A stretch of 44,925 nucleotides of DNA from a virus. The position numbers and the translations under genes are program-made. Positions 12,658 to 26,392 of the stretch are shown here, in pieces. The notes below the pieces were generated by a model. The model was not told the DNA's origin, made no database searches, and saw only the letters and a list, made by a program, of their open reading frames with translations. Every line of letters begins with the position of its first letter. Position 1 is the first letter of the stretch. Location: positions 1-44,925 of IMG/VR virus record IMGVR_UViG_3300005732_000026; one strand, 5' to 3'.

Positions 12658-13075
12658 AAAGTTCCTCGAAGGCCGGTTGTGCTCCACTGCGCAGAAGATC
12701 GCGATAGAGAGCCATCGGCCTCAACGCACCTGACCGAGAACCAATCAGATGCTTGATCGCGGTGACGCACCAAAGGCCGACCCGCGAGCGCAGATCGCCG
12801 CTTTGCGTCTCCACTTTTAGAACCGCGGTGAAGCGCCCGGAGTTGGCGTCAAACCAGCGATCGAGCCATCGACCATCGACCACCGAAATCCTGGAATGCG
12901 TGTCGGCCACGTCGTAGATCACCCAGGTATCCGTCGTCACCGAGTATCCGAATGCGCAGACATGGCGCCAATCCGGCTCCGTCAGCCAGTCCCACAGGTT
13001 ATTGCGCTCGCCACGCATGAACGCGACATTCCAAACCGCGATCGAGGGAAATTTCGGATAGGTGTAATCGACCAT
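12602..13075 (-). CDS. Unknown conserved protein downstream of large terminase, 157 aa
   Basis: The start ATG 13075 overlaps the terminase stop (ATGA). It is rich in aromatic residues (WNVAFMRGERNNLWDWL; WIYDV-type segments) with WCVTAIKHLIGSRS near the C terminus followed by LYRDLLRSG. The single conserved-looking Cys in WCVTAIKHLIG resembles a motif of papain-like or NlpC-type folds found after terminase genes in some phages. No catalytic His/Asp could be assigned, so enzyme function is not claimed. Translational coupling to the terminase suggests a packaging or head-assembly role. Confidence 0.6.
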   Translation of the reverse strand: MVDYTYPKFPSIAVWNVAFMRGERNNLWDWLTEPDWRHVCAFGYSVTTDTWVIYDVADTHSRISVVDGRWLDRWFDANSGRFTAVLKVETQSGDLRSRVGLWCVTAIKHLIGSRSGALRPMALYRDLLRSGAQPAFEELYGHESETSSGGSGNQSTA

Positions 13076-14628
13076 CAGTGCAATCTCGCAGAGGTTCGGG
13101 ACCAACGTTTGCCGGACGAAAAGGCGGAGGCATTTTTCGGTATCGTCTGGATCGGCGCCCGGCGCGAGCCTTCCGGCCGGGCCAGAATTTCTTTCGCCTC
13201 GCCGGCGCCCCAAAGGAAATACTCGAAGCTCTCGCCGCAGTTTGCATAGAGCGACTTCTTGTCCAGCCCGCCATCGGGTTTCATCTTCATTCCGCCATCC
13301 AGGGCGGAAATCAAATGCCGACAGTTCTGCCCATCGACCATCAGCTTCGGAGATCCACGGACCAGTTGGCGCATGACTTCGCGGCCGGTGGACATCCGCA
13401 GGCTCGGTTGGTCTTTCTGCGCCGGGACGTCATAGGGCAGGCCCTCAGCGGCAAAAATATCTCGGGTGGTCTTCTTCGTGTTCAGCCCGCCCCAGCCGCC
13501 AGCTGGGTCGCCTGTCACGCTTATGCCCACGTCACGGTGAAACGGGAACCGTTCGGCCAGAATCTGCTTGATCCGCCGCGCCAGGTCGAGCGTTTCCGTG
13601 TTCGGCATTTCCTCGGAATTGTAGACGTACAGCCGGCCATCAACGGACTGGCCGATCGTGAAGCCCGGCGATCCGCCCGGGTCAATCCCGATCTGCACAA
13701 CGGCGCCCTCGTATGGCGTCAAGGCGGCTTCCGAGACGTGGGCATCGCGGGAGAAGTCCGGATACCGCGGAATGCCGCTCCGGTCGGCCGTGGCGATGTT
13801 TCGATAGTCCCGATCGATCTGGTCGCGAGCCTTGCCGCCCAGGTTCGAGTACGGGTTGTCGCCCATGTTTTGCAGATTTTCGGCCCGCGGATTGAGCTCA
13901 TATCCGGTCAGGTTGCCGCCCGAGTCTTTCTTCTCGAACACAGCCGGCGGCTGCATGAAGAACTTCCAGTTGACCGGCTTCTTGTACGCCATCGCCTGGT
14001 CCGGCGGCATGTCCGAGGGAATCGGCGTGTCGCCACGCATGTACAGCAACCAGTGATCACGGGTGAACGGCGCGTTGTTATCCAGAACTGCCCATTTGCG
14101 GCGATCATATTCCGGACAATCAGCCCTTTTCGGAAAGCGGCCAGTACGATCGATGATTTCCGTGATCAGACGCAGCGACGAAAATTGGCACTCGTTCACC
14201 CAGGCCCCGGTGAACTGCGTCGATTTCAGCCGCTTCACCGACTTCTCCGACGCATCAGCAAAAGACATCATCCAAATGTCCGCCTCGACATCCAGAAACC
14301 GCATCGTCTGCTTGTAGGGCTCAGTCTCCGACATCTGCCCATAAAGCTCTTGGTCAAACCAATCCACCCAGTCTTTACGAACCGTCGTCTCAAGCTCGGC
14401 ATACGTCGGCCGCACAATCAGCCACCGCGAACGCCGGATCCCGTCCAGGCACCGCGGCATCTCGCAGATCGCTTTGTACAGCGCCCCGATACACCCAACC
14501 GTCTTGCCCGACTCCACCGGACCCTCGACCAGGCGAACGTCCGTCTTGTCCAGCAGCATCTCACGCAATGTTGGAGAACCATGAGGAAACCGATCGTCCC
14601 CGCGAAAATGAATCCGAGGCGCGCTCAC
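13075..14628 (-). CDS. terL: Terminase large subunit, 517 aa
   Basis: The ATPase Walker A is GPVESGKT at residues 36-43. Adenine-binding and coupling regions follow (WLIVRPTYAELETTVRKDW; GAWVNECQFS). The C-terminal RuvC-like nuclease begins at VQIGIDPGGSPG, whose Asp is a metal ligand. It is the motor that packages DNA and cuts the concatemer. The start is GTG 14628, overlapping the previous stop (GTGA); there is no ATG upstream in frame. The C terminus is basic and ends as an ordinary frame, so no frameshift is needed. Confidence 0.93.
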   Translation of the reverse strand: MSAPRIHFRGDDRFPHGSPTLREMLLDKTDVRLVEGPVESGKTVGCIGALYKAICEMPRCLDGIRRSRWLIVRPTYAELETTVRKDWVDWFDQELYGQMSETEPYKQTMRFLDVEADIWMMSFADASEKSVKRLKSTQFTGAWVNECQFSSLRLITEIIDRTGRFPKRADCPEYDRRKWAVLDNNAPFTRDHWLLYMRGDTPIPSDMPPDQAMAYKKPVNWKFFMQPPAVFEKKDSGGNLTGYELNPRAENLQNMGDNPYSNLGGKARDQIDRDYRNIATADRSGIPRYPDFSRDAHVSEAALTPYEGAVVQIGIDPGGSPGFTIGQSVDGRLYVYNSEEMPNTETLDLARRIKQILAERFPFHRDVGISVTGDPAGGWGGLNTKKTTRDIFAAEGLPYDVPAQKDQPSLRMSTGREVMRQLVRGSPKLMVDGQNCRHLISALDGGMKMKPDGGLDKKSLYANCGESFEYFLWGAGEAKEILARPEGSRRAPIQTIPKNASAFSSGKRWSRTSARLH

Positions 14629-15323
14629 ACAATCACCGTGTTCTCAGGAGGAATTACATCAACAACCAAACGCCGCCGCGCCGCTTTAAAATACGTCTTC
14701 ACATCCGACGCATTGAACGTGCCACCCTCAACCGCATTCAACCCACCAGACGAATTCGTCGCCGGCGCCAAGGTCAATCGGGCCCGAACCAATCCGTCAA
14801 CCGGCCAGGAACCAGAAATCGGATCCGGAACCTCAACCGAGTACGAATCCGAAAAAAGCTCGTTCACTTCACCAGACCAATTGCCCGACACATACCCAGC
14901 ATTCGCCGAACACGAAAACGGAAACACATCCGACACCAACGCCTGAATCAACGACGCCCCGTCATAAAGCGCCAGCGTCTGCGTAAACGAAAAGTGCTCA
15001 AACATGTCCTTGATGCCCTGCAACACATACATCGCCGTAACATCAACCACACAACCCGCAATAATCGAAAAATCACCCGTCTCAAGCACCAACGTCTCGT
15101 AATCCGTCGCAACCTTCCCAGGCGTCGCAACCGACGTCTTCACAAAATCCGTCGAACCAGAAAATCCCCGAGCCCAACTACCCTGGAAATCAGAAACCGC
15201 ATCAGACCGATCAACCTGACTCTTGAAAGCCAAGTCCTTCGCATACCGAGGCGCAGACGCAGAACGAACCCCAAACGTCTCAGGCATCCCTTTCGGCGGC
15301 AATTTCGGACGACGCAACGGCAT
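14625..15323 (-). CDS. Unknown 232-aa protein wedged between small and large terminase
   Basis: The start is uncertain: ATG 15323 is chosen (MPLRRPKLPPKG), but GTG/TTG codons up to 15344 and an ATG at residue 13 are possible. The N terminus is basic and Pro-rich. The remainder is hydrophobic/beta-rich (TDYETLVLETGDFSIIAGCV; VTAMYVLQGIKDMFEHFSFT) and ends DVIPPENTVIV. Codon choice differs clearly from its neighbours, with far more T-ending and G/T-rich codons. The stop overlaps the terminase start (GTGA), so it belongs to the packaging operon. No family was recognised. Confidence 0.65.
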   Translation of the reverse strand: MPLRRPKLPPKGMPETFGVRSASAPRYAKDLAFKSQVDRSDAVSDFQGSWARGFSGSTDFVKTSVATPGKVATDYETLVLETGDFSIIAGCVVDVTAMYVLQGIKDMFEHFSFTQTLALYDGASLIQALVSDVFPFSCSANAGYVSGNWSGEVNELFSDSYSVEVPDPISGSWPVDGLVRARLTLAPATNSSGGLNAVEGGTFNASDVKTYFKAARRRLVVDVIPPENTVIV

Positions 15324-20343: not shown

Positions 20344-20403
20344 CGCCGGCACCAGCACACGCCGGGCAGCGCACGATATACGGCGGCATATGGACCAGCA
20401 CCA

Positions 20404-20418
20404 CGGAAAAGGAATCCG
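20404..20418 (+). promoter_or_regulatory. Hairpin-boxed ribosome binding site, copy 4
   Basis: CGGA-AAAGGAA-TCCG: the stem bases are kept while the loop differs from the other copies, and AGGA stays in the loop. The ATG at 20422 follows three bases after the box. Confidence 0.55.
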
Positions 20419-20421
20419 ACA

Positions 20422-20640
20422 ATGCAAATATCTGACACCCTCAAACCTGGCCAAATATGGCGCCAGTATTCAGACAAAGACTATGGCGACATTATCCGCT
20501 TCAAAGTCACGGCGTCGTCGGCTCGCGCCGCTCACATCGAGAATTGCGCCACCGGCAAGCCCTACGCAGTGACCAACCAGGGCGAACTAGACACCTTCAC
20601 CTTTGACTGCGAATTGATGGAAGCGGAATCTCAAGCATGA
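20422..20640 (+). CDS. Unknown 72-aa protein
   Basis: A small mostly beta protein (DTLKPGQIWRQYSDKDYGDI; AHIENCATGKPYAV) with one Cys in the centre and one near the end. The GQIWRQYSDKDYGDIIRFKV stretch resembles small SH3-like domains. No family is assigned. The stop overlaps the start of a membrane micropeptide (ATGA). Confidence 0.6.
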   Translation: MQISDTLKPGQIWRQYSDKDYGDIIRFKVTASSARAAHIENCATGKPYAVTNQGELDTFTFDCELMEAESQA

Positions 20641-22151: not shown

Positions 22152-23602
22152 GATCGCCGCTCCTGGTCGTAATAATCGCTGTAGCGGCCCGTCTCGTAAT
22201 CCAGCTTGAGAACCGCGCAGCCTGGCTTTCCCATGATCCGGTGACGCTTCACCTTCCACGAAATCACTTTGGCCAGCGCATCGCCGGATTCAGTGATCTC
22301 CCGGTACGCGGTGACGCCCAAATCGACCATGTTGTACCAATGACTCGAGCCGGAGATATCGTATCCGCCTGGCACCTCGTATGAGCCATCGTTTTTCTTC
22401 TGGATTTTTCGCGGATGCGCCACGATCGCCACATGGACGTCGAACTTACGGGCAAAACGCTTCAAGTCATTCAGCACCCGGCCGGTGTAATCGTTCTCGC
22501 TCTCGCTGCGATCGCGGGTGTGATCCAATTTGGACCATGGGTCGATCACGATCATGTCCACACCATGCCGAACGACCGCGGTTTCCATCTTCTCGATCAG
22601 CCAGTCAATCGTCATTCGAGCGTTTGTCTCTTCATCCTCGACGAAGAAGCAAAAATGTTCGTCCAGGCGCTGGTCAGTCAGGGACCAATGATTGCCATCC
22701 AGGGCGGGCTCCGGCCGATTGCCGACATAGCAGGCCATCGCGGTGCGATAATCCTCCTGCACATCATCCTCGAAGCAGCCAATGCCAAATCGCCAGCGGT
22801 GTTGCCGCATCAGCTCCCAGCAAACGGCGTTGATCAGGGTCGATTTGCCGTGATTGGGGACACCCGTCCACACAGAGATATGCTTGCGAAGAATGGCCAC
22901 ATGCTTGTCGAAGTCCGAGTTCTTGCCGCCCAGGCTGACGTGAAACACCTGCGGCTTGGCGACCGGTGGCATGTCCGCGACTTTCACCACACCCGGGATC
23001 GAGATCCACGCAGCATCGGCCACCGCTTTCTGGACCGCCTCCACGCCATGCTTGATCAGCGCGCCATTGGGATCCTTGGTTCCGTCGGGATAACGCAGCC
23101 ACTTGCACCGCGCTTTGCCGAGCCGCTTAGCCAGATAGTTGCGCAGATGTGACCCGTTCTGGTCGCCATCAACGGCAAGAATGATGACCCGCTCACCCTT
23201 CAGGCGCTTCAGCAGGTCAGGCACATACGACCACTTGGCCCCGCCATCATCCTCGACCTCACCGTTTGGCGCCCCGTCCGGCACGGAAATCACTCGCTCG
23301 AATCCACACTGGATCATCGCAAGCGCATCCATCTCGCCCTCGGTAATGATCACCGGGCTATCGCCAGCCTTCAGAGAGTCTTCGTTCCAGCAGGACTTGA
23401 ACGGAGCGTCCGCGTCCTGGCTGAAACCCTTCTCTGGGGCAATGCGTCGATATTTGGTTGTGACGTGCCGGCCATCTCGCTGATACGGGAAAGCCAGCCA
23501 CTCACCACCAGCTCGATCGACGCTGGCTATGTCGTGTGCTTCCGCTATCGCTGGGTCTATTTTGCGACTCCTGAGCCAAGCGGCGGCTTTCTCGTTCAGC
23601 AT
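22148..23602 (-). CDS. Toprim primase-helicase (DnaB/Twinkle type), 484 aa
   Basis: The N-terminal Toprim domain has VIITEGEMDAL (84-94, catalytic Glu) and VDGDQNG (144-150, DxD). The C-terminal RecA-like helicase has Walker A GVPNHGKST (247-255) and Walker B MIVIDPW (350-356), with a later HVAIVAHPRK motif. This is the layout of T7 gp4 without its zinc-binding domain. A perfect AGGAGGT lies at 23607-23613, just before ATG 23602. The missing zinc ribbon is encoded directly upstream in another frame (23502-23795). It unwinds DNA and primes the lagging strand. Confidence 0.92.
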   Translation of the reverse strand: MLNEKAAAWLRSRKIDPAIAEAHDIASVDRAGGEWLAFPYQRDGRHVTTKYRRIAPEKGFSQDADAPFKSCWNEDSLKAGDSPVIITEGEMDALAMIQCGFERVISVPDGAPNGEVEDDGGAKWSYVPDLLKRLKGERVIILAVDGDQNGSHLRNYLAKRLGKARCKWLRYPDGTKDPNGALIKHGVEAVQKAVADAAWISIPGVVKVADMPPVAKPQVFHVSLGGKNSDFDKHVAILRKHISVWTGVPNHGKSTLINAVCWELMRQHRWRFGIGCFEDDVQEDYRTAMACYVGNRPEPALDGNHWSLTDQRLDEHFCFFVEDEETNARMTIDWLIEKMETAVVRHGVDMIVIDPWSKLDHTRDRSESENDYTGRVLNDLKRFARKFDVHVAIVAHPRKIQKKNDGSYEVPGGYDISGSSHWYNMVDLGVTAYREITESGDALAKVISWKVKRHRIMGKPGCAVLKLDYETGRYSDYYDQERRS

Positions 23603-23795
23603 TGTAACCTCCTGCCCATCCGCAATGATGGCAATTGAAGACCGCTTCCGTGGATGACTTGATCGTCACGCTCAGACAGCGATCCTTTTTCTTTTTCCGG
23701 GTGTGAGAGCACTGTGGGCACGTCGTTGTATGATTGCCCGACTGTTGCGAGTTCAGAGCGATGCCCTGGTCGTGAAGCCAGTCCGATAAGGTCAT
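23502..23795 (-). CDS. Primase zinc-ribbon protein, 97 aa, overlapping the helicase out of frame
   Basis: The metal-binding Cys pairs are C26-P-Q-C29 and C55-H-H-C58 (TTTCPQCSHTRKKKKDRC; AVFNCHHCGWAGGYN), the T7 gp4-type primase zinc-binding domain. After residue 65 the sequence is Arg/Ser-rich and runs in a shadow of the helicase, so only the first 65 residues look functional. The start overlaps the DUF1376 stop (ATGA). It overlaps the helicase by 101 bp in a different frame; a +1 shift near 23603-23610 would fuse the two into a full T7-like primase-helicase. Separate translation is the alternative. Confidence 0.8.
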   Translation of the reverse strand: MTLSDWLHDQGIALNSQQSGNHTTTCPQCSHTRKKKKDRCLSVTIKSSTEAVFNCHHCGWAGGYNAERESRRLAQESQNRPSDSGSTRHSQRRSSWW

Positions 23796-24589
23796 ATCGC
23801 AATCCCCATCTGCTGGAGCTCTTCGATGTAGTGACGAGGCTTCCCGTGTTTCGGCTTCACCTGTCTGGCGTACCCCAGGTACTTTTCGTCGTTCAGCCAG
23901 CGGTCCAGCGCCTTGCCGCCGCTCAGCTTGAAGTCGTCATGCTTCAGATACGCCTCGACGCCAGCCATGATCTGGACGATCCCGACTGATGTTCGATGTC
24001 GGCAGAAGATGGGATAAATCTTGGCGGGCGTCTTTGATCGACCGGCACCGTTCGGAGTGGTTTTCCACCGGTCCCAGAGAGCCACGAATTCCTGATCAGA
24101 TTTCCAATCGTCCGCGACAGCGGGCAGAAGTTCTTTTTTGGTACTTTTTTCTTTCTTCTGACTCTGACTCTGGCTGTCGCGCGCACGTGGCATAGCGTCC
24201 GCATTGCTGTCGCATTGCTCCCGCATGTCATCGGGCGTTGATTTTCTTGGGTTTTTCTCCCACCTAGAATTTGCGGCTTGAGAAGCTAATGCTCGACGTT
24301 TTTGGGTGTTAGAAAGCTCTTCTAGCACTCGTTTTTGCGACAGCTTACCGTCGGAAAGAGTGATCTTTTCGTCATCGATCAGCACATCCAGGGCCCTTTT
24401 AAAGGCGCTGTTTGATGTCCCGCACATCCGGGCAAGCCGAGCCACATTCAGCTCAACTTCACCCTCGCGCTCATACATCAGCGCAATCAGCGTGATGTAC
24501 ACGCCGGTCTCTGACGAGCTCATGCCACGCGTGCCGGCCAGCCAATCGCTCGGATAGAATTTGACCCATACGGCCTTTTCTTCGCTCAT
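23792..24589 (-). CDS. DUF1376 replication-type protein, 265 aa
   Basis: The N-terminal 90 residues carry the DUF1376 winged-helix pattern: WVKFYPSDWLAGTRGM, then TGVYITLIALMYEREGEVEL and LARMCGTSNSAFKRALDVL. A Lys/Ser/Gln-rich linker (DSQSQSQKKEKSTKKEL) joins a C-terminal domain with VEAYLKHDDFKLSGGKALDR and WLNDEKYLGY, typical of DnaD/replisome organisers. It probably binds the origin and loads the helicase encoded next. The start overlaps the upstream stop (ATGA). Confidence 0.85.
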   Translation of the reverse strand: MSEEKAVWVKFYPSDWLAGTRGMSSSETGVYITLIALMYEREGEVELNVARLARMCGTSNSAFKRALDVLIDDEKITLSDGKLSQKRVLEELSNTQKRRALASQAANSRWEKNPRKSTPDDMREQCDSNADAMPRARDSQSQSQKKEKSTKKELLPAVADDWKSDQEFVALWDRWKTTPNGAGRSKTPAKIYPIFCRHRTSVGIVQIMAGVEAYLKHDDFKLSGGKALDRWLNDEKYLGYARQVKPKHGKPRHYIEELQQMGIAI

Positions 24590-25264: not shown

Positions 25265-25691
25265 GGGAAATCTCCCCGATGGGCCCAACGGTCACTTCAA
25301 CGCGCGTGTGATCTGAATAGAACTTGGTCGAGCCGATCCCGCACACTTGGGCATCATCGTTGAAAGCAATCGTGTTGAGCCCGTCCAGAATGGCTTTGTT
25401 CACGTTGTCCAGGTCAGGCTTTTTGGCAGGCCGCATCTTGCCGTCCCGCATCAACGCCTTTTTGTATTTCGGCGCGCTCTTGGGGATCGGATAGAAAGCG
25501 TTGATGCGAACCCACACAGCGCCCTCATAGGGCGGGCGCCCCGCCATCACGGATTGAGCCGCCGCCTGGACCTGCTTCTCGTAAGTCGCGGTCTTGGCGT
25601 CGGTGTATGCGACCATGTGCCGACCCCGCTTACCAAAGCGAGGCCGGCCCTTGCCGCGCGGATCGCCGTGTATGACGAACGAAACCGGCAT
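25257..25691 (-). CDS. rusA: RusA-type Holliday junction resolvase, 144 aa
   Basis: The family signature KKPDLDNVNKAILDGLN is at residues 90-106, with D93, D95 and K99, and a further acidic pair D112-D113 (NDDAQV). The N terminus has the PRGKGRPRFGKRG turn. The length is usual for RusA. It cuts Holliday junctions and branched packaging intermediates. It works with the exonuclease/RecT pair encoded on the other strand, and sits in the replication operon with its start overlapping the upstream stop. Confidence 0.92.
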   Translation of the reverse strand: MPVSFVIHGDPRGKGRPRFGKRGRHMVAYTDAKTATYEKQVQAAAQSVMAGRPPYEGAVWVRINAFYPIPKSAPKYKKALMRDGKMRPAKKPDLDNVNKAILDGLNTIAFNDDAQVCGIGSTKFYSDHTRVEVTVGPIGEISHG

Positions 25692-26392
25692 CAGGCTTCG
25701 ATGCCCTTCAGCGCCGACTCTTCGTCATCGACCGGATCGGCTTCATCCCGTTCAGCCCGCCAGTCATCGCCATCACCGGCCAGCGGGTCTTCGTCATCCG
25801 CCTCGGTTTCGGCCTCAACAGGAAGATCATCATCAGCCGGCTCGATAGGTTCCGGTTCAGCTTCAGGCTCGGGATCGGCCGGCGTCGATTGCGACATGGA
25901 CATGCCCGCGACGATGCATTTCTGCGCATCGTGCCAACCCTGAAGCCAATGCTTGTATCCATCATCACCTGAGCGATGCGGATTTTGTTCAGAGCCGACA
26001 TTGTTCGACCCAGCCCGGAAGCCGTCGAAGCGCCATTGCTCTTCAAGAGCCGACCTATCCGGTTGTTCGAAGAGATCGAATTGGTGGCTGATCGGGTGGT
26101 TGAATGCCCGCAGGATCGAGCCGATTTCCGCCAGGTCATTGCGAACTTCATCGTCATCCGCAGCCAGCAGAATTTCGCGGGCACGGTCGAAGTTCTTCAG
26201 CTTGATACCATCAGCCTGGATGGTCTTGAGGTATTTCCGCTTCTTGGCGCCCGCCGCTTTGGCGGTTTCCTTGGCCTTGGCTTCGACCTCTTCGAGCTTG
26301 GCCAGCTCGGAATGGTGAAACACCACGAGATTGTCGGGCACATTTTTGAGGGGGGGATTGCCGGACGTATTTCCCCCAGCGTCATTGGACAT
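25691..26392 (-). CDS. 233-aa protein with ribosome modulation factor-like motif
   Basis: The middle (WRFDGFRAG, then NPHRSGDDGYKHWLQGWHDA) closely follows the RMF pattern: Gly-x-x-Ala-Gly helix, Asn/Cys-Pro turn, then W-L-x-G-W helix. The N-terminal half is helical (VEAKAKETAKAAGAKKRKYL) and the C-terminal 70 residues are almost all acidic and Pro. RMF dimerises ribosomes in stationary phase; many phages carry RMF-like domains with no proven role. The third gene from the repressor, so expressed early. RMF assignment is by motif recall. Confidence 0.6.
   Translation of the reverse strand: MSNDAGGNTSGNPPLKNVPDNLVVFHHSELAKLEEVEAKAKETAKAAGAKKRKYLKTIQADGIKLKNFDRAREILLAADDDEVRNDLAEIGSILRAFNHPISHQFDLFEQPDRSALEEQWRFDGFRAGSNNVGSEQNPHRSGDDGYKHWLQGWHDAQKCIVAGMSMSQSTPADPEPEAEPEPIEPADDDLPVEAETEADDEDPLAGDGDDWRAERDEADPVDDEESALKGIEA

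Follow-up and report, generated by a model that had tools for sequence, protein, structure and literature searches.

The closest described relative of the genes studied here is gene 4 of phage T7, whose products, gp4A (63 kDa) and gp4B (56 kDa), join an RNA-polymerase/Toprim domain to a DnaB-like helicase domain. Both forms share a reading frame, and in T7 a zinc domain never occurs apart from a helicase subunit. The natural 56-kDa form is initiated separately at codon 64, immediately past the zinc domain, and keeps helicase activity but cannot prime (PMC9198812). The fused primase-helicases of PHROG 239 (as in vB_RanS_PJN03, Cellulophaga phi10:1 and 173 loci of the first set described below) consist of one open reading frame, with a linker of at least 21 amino acids from the fourth cysteine of the zinc ribbon to the polymerase domain. 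For DnaG primases, Corn et al. reportedly found in 2005 that a subunit's zinc domain can work on the polymerase domain of a different subunit, although this zinc domain is covalently attached and DnaG has no helicase domain. Finally, the programmed +1 frameshift of prfB involves a Shine-Dalgarno sequence that lies within the coding sequence.

The locus described here shares features with all of these. Its large protein shares the domains of T7 gp4 and, like gp4B, is a ribbon-less form with its own start codon; fused PHROG 239 genes hold homologues of both of its parts; DnaG provides a precedent for a zinc domain working in trans; and its junction, like that of prfB, combines an internal Shine-Dalgarno sequence with a +1 frame relation. 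Unlike in T7, the zinc domain is encoded as a free protein, in another frame and with an added tail, so that a full-length protein could arise only through frameshifting.

Gene order and products of the locus

The window, by which we mean the whole 44,925-nt stretch of viral DNA that was analysed, is a temperate phage record, as judged from its exonuclease VIII, RecT and integrase genes. Its replication cluster lies on the minus strand and runs from a DUF1376 gene through a zinc-ribbon gene to a Toprim-helicase gene:

23792..24589, minus strand: upstream DUF1376 primosomal-type replication gene, its stop overlapping the ribbon ATG
23502..23795, minus strand: zinc-ribbon gene, 97 amino acids, Cys4 ribbon plus C-terminal tail in the overlap
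23604..23795, minus strand: folded zinc-ribbon domain, residues 1-64, motif CPQC...CHHCGWAGG, from invariant cysteines and AlphaFold2
23607..23613, minus strand: AGGAGGT, putative Shine-Dalgarno sequence of the helicase gene, spelled by ribbon Ala-Gly-Gly codons
23502..23602, minus strand: 101-nt out-of-frame overlap of the ribbon tail and the first helicase codons
22148..23602, minus strand: ribbon-less primase-helicase, 484 amino acids, RNA-polymerase/Toprim plus DnaB-like helicase, predicted T7 gp4B equivalent
23060..23350, minus strand: Toprim domain; family-wide invariant TEGE and DGD motifs (E88, D145, D147)
22838..22864, minus strand: helicase Walker A, GVPNHGKST, residues 247-255, from alignment, with G252 and K253 invariant

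The ribbon ATG and the DUF1376 stop share the ATGA at 23792-23795, and the helicase start is offset from the ribbon start by 193 nt, which places it in the +1 frame. A preliminary description of this DNA had a four-cysteine ribbon frame entering the Toprim-helicase gene by 101 nt in another frame, with AGGAGGT directly before the helicase ATG, and the coordinates bear out both statements; the heptamer, which lies in the minus-strand sequence AGGAGGTTACAATG, is separated from the ATG by a 4-nt spacer. By itself this heptamer is not above chance in the GC-rich window (five copies, 3.4 expected), so the case for the helicase start rests on homologues. The arrangement AGGAGG-N5-ATG occurs once, at the helicase start, with 0.32 expected. 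The above-chance support for AGGAGGT as a ribosome-binding site is comparative and comes from the frame offset, the near-fixed start distance and the Shine-Dalgarno sequences of the homologues considered below.

The large protein matches Pfam Toprim_2 and AAA_25 as well as PHROG 239 (DNA primase/helicase), and a profile of 27 split homologues aligns to residues 78-542 of T7 gp4 (E 1e-30). Its AlphaFold2 model has a mean pLDDT of 90.6 and is folded from residue 4 onward (pLDDT 95), leaving no loose linker at the N-terminus, and its top Foldseek match is T7 gp4 (5ikn, E 8e-25). As in gp4, Toprim E and DxD motifs are joined to a DnaB-like helicase domain, and the Toprim catalytic residues of the large protein do not vary across the split family. 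Together, these comparisons identify the large protein as a gp4B-like protein, predicted to correspond to T7 gp4 minus the zinc domain.

In the small protein, C26, C29, C55 and C58 are invariant among 30 split homologues, and a CPxCS and a CLS motif are invariant or nearly so across 30 to 47% identity. AlphaFold2 gives pLDDT values of 93-96 for residues 1-60 and about 53 for residues 71-97. The isolated ribbon had no significant match to a named primase family in Pfam, a PDB sequence profile search or Foldseek. We assign it as a primase ribbon because its profile also detects the N-terminal ribbon of the 173 fused primase-helicases. The ribbon gene is present in all intact split loci.

Conservation and origin of the split

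Used alone as a query, the window helicase gave no matches in viral or genome contigs, and homologue detection needed alignment-based searches. A first set of 240 loci contained 173 fused and 60 non-fused loci, 58 of the latter in the +1 frame. After dereplication, 45 +1-split loci formed one clade (SH-aLRT 95) apart from 111 fused relatives, with one very long, partial archaeal row, L155, nested inside the clade; three changes of the split or fused label suffice on the tree of 158. The comparison with closely related phages, which could have revealed a fused gene at this point, favoured the split: all 45 of these split loci share the +1 offset. Two further scans yielded 125 non-fused loci, every one in the +1 frame; several of these were re-fetched contigs, and dereplication gave 122 split loci in all. 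The zinc domain and the helicase are encoded by separate open reading frames across these 122 loci.

The nearest relatives of the window are both split: L160, at 48% identity, and Bradyrhizobium phage BDU-MI-1, whose ribbon and helicase frames stand in the same +1 relation at a helicase identity of 34%. BDU-MI-1 and the window share the same 12 nt at the junction, AATGCTGAACGA. In GenBank the helicase of BDU-MI-1 is annotated and its ribbon gene is not; we place the latter as follows:

KY940711.1 17539-17871 (= L002:1161-1493): unannotated BDU-MI-1 ribbon gene

From the tree, the split appears to have a single origin, and the comparisons together point to a split that is old and widespread in a large phage group and is neither a sequencing error nor a one-off. 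The preliminary description had proposed, as one option, two polypeptides and a natural split of a T7-type primase, a view that the comparative data support well. We found no earlier description of this split in the open literature.

Two candidates, L107 and L114, were rejected as members of the split family, since both lie among fused genes and represent isolated breaks. L114 is non-fused in a +2 relation. L107 carries an in-frame TAG at 2860-2862, inside the second cysteine pair (CH*C, where its relative L071 has CHYC), which may be an isolated nonsense change or an error.

The helicase start and the overlapping tail

The helicase has its own ATG, GTG or TTG start in about 111 of the 122 loci, mostly 22-25 nt after the fourth cysteine and as a rule preceded by a Shine-Dalgarno sequence. 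Canonical starts were scored automatically in 105 loci and by eye in six more, for a tally of about 91 ATG, 17 GTG and 3 TTG, the GTG of L284 being doubtful; in 102 of the 122 loci the start lies 19-28 nt after the fourth cysteine or was located there by hand. Seven of the new loci carry CxxxC or CxxxxC as the second cysteine pair, six of them with normal starts. Of the 45 loci in the first set, 40 had ATG, GTG or TTG 16-37 nt past the fourth cysteine codon, and in 26 this was an ATG at +22. The start position varies among ATG, GTG and TTG, and other valine codons never occur there, which is the behaviour expected of an initiation codon.

A GG at -10/-9 of the helicase start was found in 37 of 40 first-set homologues. 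This GG belongs to the codon of a conserved ribbon glycine, which means that the core of the Shine-Dalgarno sequence comes from the ribbon motif CGWxG. The mean energy of the Shine-Dalgarno duplex in the first set was -7.3 kcal/mol, as compared with -3.2 kcal/mol at control positions, and the average in the wider set of loci was -7.7 kcal/mol. Fused relatives showed no enrichment of internal starts with a Shine-Dalgarno sequence in the linker (11/111 vs 15% in controls), and we therefore rejected a T7-style internal start in these relatives as the source of the split.

In a minority of loci the start position holds a near-cognate codon, ATT in L090, L250, L337 and L338 and CTG in L094 and L340, and five loci (L019, L022, L049, L320 and L383) have no recognised helicase start at the expected place, L049 and L320 carrying ACG there. 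The near-cognate positions often have a good Shine-Dalgarno sequence, that of the CTG in L340 reaching -10.3 kcal/mol. These codons may be real weak starts, or the loci may use another route to the helicase. The L022 sequence recurs as L023 in a second sample, and both lack a recognised helicase start near the junction; because identical sequences came from two samples, this is unlikely to reflect an assembly error.

Downstream of the helicase start, the ribbon frame remains open for at least 25 codons in every locus, against 45% expected (39 clusters), where the expectation comes from synonymous recoding of the helicase with each locus's own codons. In the first set, 25 of 25 clusters were open over this distance (42% expected). 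Because the 25-codon threshold was chosen after seeing the first set, the fair test is provided by 14 new clusters without a first-set relative, and all of these were open (50% expected; product 1.5e-5, mean percentile 0.74). Fused controls gave 31% (28% expected); for the third frame the value was 7% (18% expected).

Synonymous differences were reduced within the overlap in two sub-clades, to 0.378 vs 0.484 in the L043 clade (fewer in 25 of 28 disjoint pairs) and to 0.144 vs 0.333 in the BDU clade (fewer in 5 of 5). For the remaining loci, the window among them, the reduction was not significant (14 of 25 pairs). In fused controls, synonymous differences were mildly lower across the first 100 codons (30 of 45, p 0.036) and not across 37, which makes the L043-clade signal partly regional. 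Between deep lineages, tail identity was not above expectation (z -0.1), and BLOSUM similarity of the tails was (z 4.9). Selection for basic charge in the tail was weak (mean percentile 0.61). These data suggest that the tail is a retained coding extension in the family, with openness as the one sign of it in the window's own group. The preliminary description had called the frame beyond residue 65 a shadow; the region is indeed the overlap tail, but that label undersold a frame that is kept open throughout the family and shows synonymous constraint in two sub-clades.

The overlap is far longer in the L042/L043 clade (57 dereplicated loci, e.g. L043:2847-3242) than in the window, at about 80 to over 110 codons, and tail motifs recur there.

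Proposed expression and function of the separated zinc domain

We consider it likely that in this locus a T7 gp4-type primase-helicase gene underwent fission long ago and that the split has been conserved since, the zinc domain being produced on its own and probably working in trans. Translation from the upstream ATG would give a small zinc-binding protein, whose new C-terminal tail is encoded by the +1 frame across the first helicase codons, and the gp4B-like remainder of the enzyme would be translated independently from its own start codon, under a Shine-Dalgarno sequence written in the ribbon's own glycine codons. Both proteins would thus be made. The helicase protein would form a gp4B-like hexamer, and the free zinc domain would most likely associate with the helicase-primase and read the priming site in trans; the tail may replace the lost linker, the ribbon docking perhaps through it. 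Tight coupling of the two genes, as raised in the preliminary description, is unlikely to occur by termination and reinitiation, since ribosomes reading the ribbon frame would pass the helicase start by at least 75 nt before they reach the stop.

For a fuller version of this scheme we have only a slight preference. Here the free zinc protein is a trans-acting subunit with an overprinted, de novo tail, and the two overlapping ribosome-binding sites would set the ratio of priming-competent to helicase-only hexamers. A minority of helicases would come from ATT, CTG or ACG starts or from a rare +1 frameshift.

The first alternative is that AGGAGGT pauses the ribosome and a fraction of ribosomes slips +1, producing a full-length T7-like primase-helicase beside the short forms. 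Shine-Dalgarno sequences in coding regions can stimulate +1 shifts, as in E. coli prfB, a normal helicase start is missing from a handful of loci, and every clade member has the +1 relation, 0 and +2 being absent. A single origin, together with a tail frame that was kept open, does however explain the invariable +1 relation. The helicase also keeps a start codon at its position 0 (17 GTG, 3 TTG and zero other valine codons), so that the downstream frame has its own initiation site in about 111 of 122 loci, and unlike in prfB there is no conserved slip or stop codon at the shift point. Between the fourth cysteine and 30 nt past the helicase start, all five tested +1 slip codons are missing in 57 of 113 loci, including the window, and 11 loci have a helicase-frame stop between the fourth cysteine and the start. 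A frameshift fusion would leave a linker of about 10 amino acids from the fourth cysteine to the RNA-polymerase domain, as compared with at least 21 (median 33) in the 111 natural fusions, and frameshifting leaves the downstream openness of the ribbon frame unexplained. The frameshift promoted by the Shine-Dalgarno sequence, as suggested in the preliminary description, is accordingly not supported, given the conserved start, the unshared slip sites, the upstream stops and the short linker. We regard routine +1 frameshifting as unlikely, with a rare frameshift product possible, and give the alternative as a whole a small chance.

A slightly smaller chance goes to the ribbon frame being a decaying remnant, kept by proximity, with the gp4B-like helicase sufficing and host DnaG priming. 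The zinc domain of T7 is dispensable for the helicase activity of gp4B (PMC9198812), and Twinkle has lost priming in animals (PMC9860392). Decay is hard to reconcile with ribbon cysteines and CPxCS and CLS motifs that stay invariant or nearly so over such divergence, with the presence of the ribbon gene in all intact split loci beside invariant Toprim catalytic residues, or with retention of the tail frame.

An assembly or sequencing error, the third option of the preliminary description, could in principle break one gene in the window record, as a one-base change could join the frames in a single genome, but it is excluded for practical purposes by an offset that 122 dereplicated loci, drawn from many samples, share with a GenBank phage, and by linker lengths that differ from those of fused genes, so that more than one base separates the split from the fused state.

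Returning to the gene fission, the split family appears to be of the T7 gp4 kind and, judged by its sequences, would work like a primase-helicase with one defining feature missing, the covalent zinc domain. It would offer a natural experiment on zinc-domain function in T7-type primases, in which a free zinc protein makes the cis-versus-trans question directly testable. Should the ribbon function on its own, the polymerase, the helicase and the recognition of the template could be combined at will. The family also provides an overprinted coding tail that stays open over deep divergence. The ribbon gene is easily missed by annotation, as in BDU-MI-1, and such phages then seem to be without a primase zinc domain.

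Elsewhere in the window, a 622-aa frame at 13078-14946 (plus strand) runs antisense to a 517-aa frame at 13075-14628 (minus strand), whose product had no PHROG match; the pair is probably a GC-rich frame artefact. A tRNA-Ala (TGC), the sole tRNA in the window, is predicted at 20382-20461 (minus strand). Beside the RusA gene, the end of the protein encoded at 25691-26392 (minus strand) resembles ribosome modulation factor (Pfam RMF at E 3.5e-4, which misses the curated cut-off).
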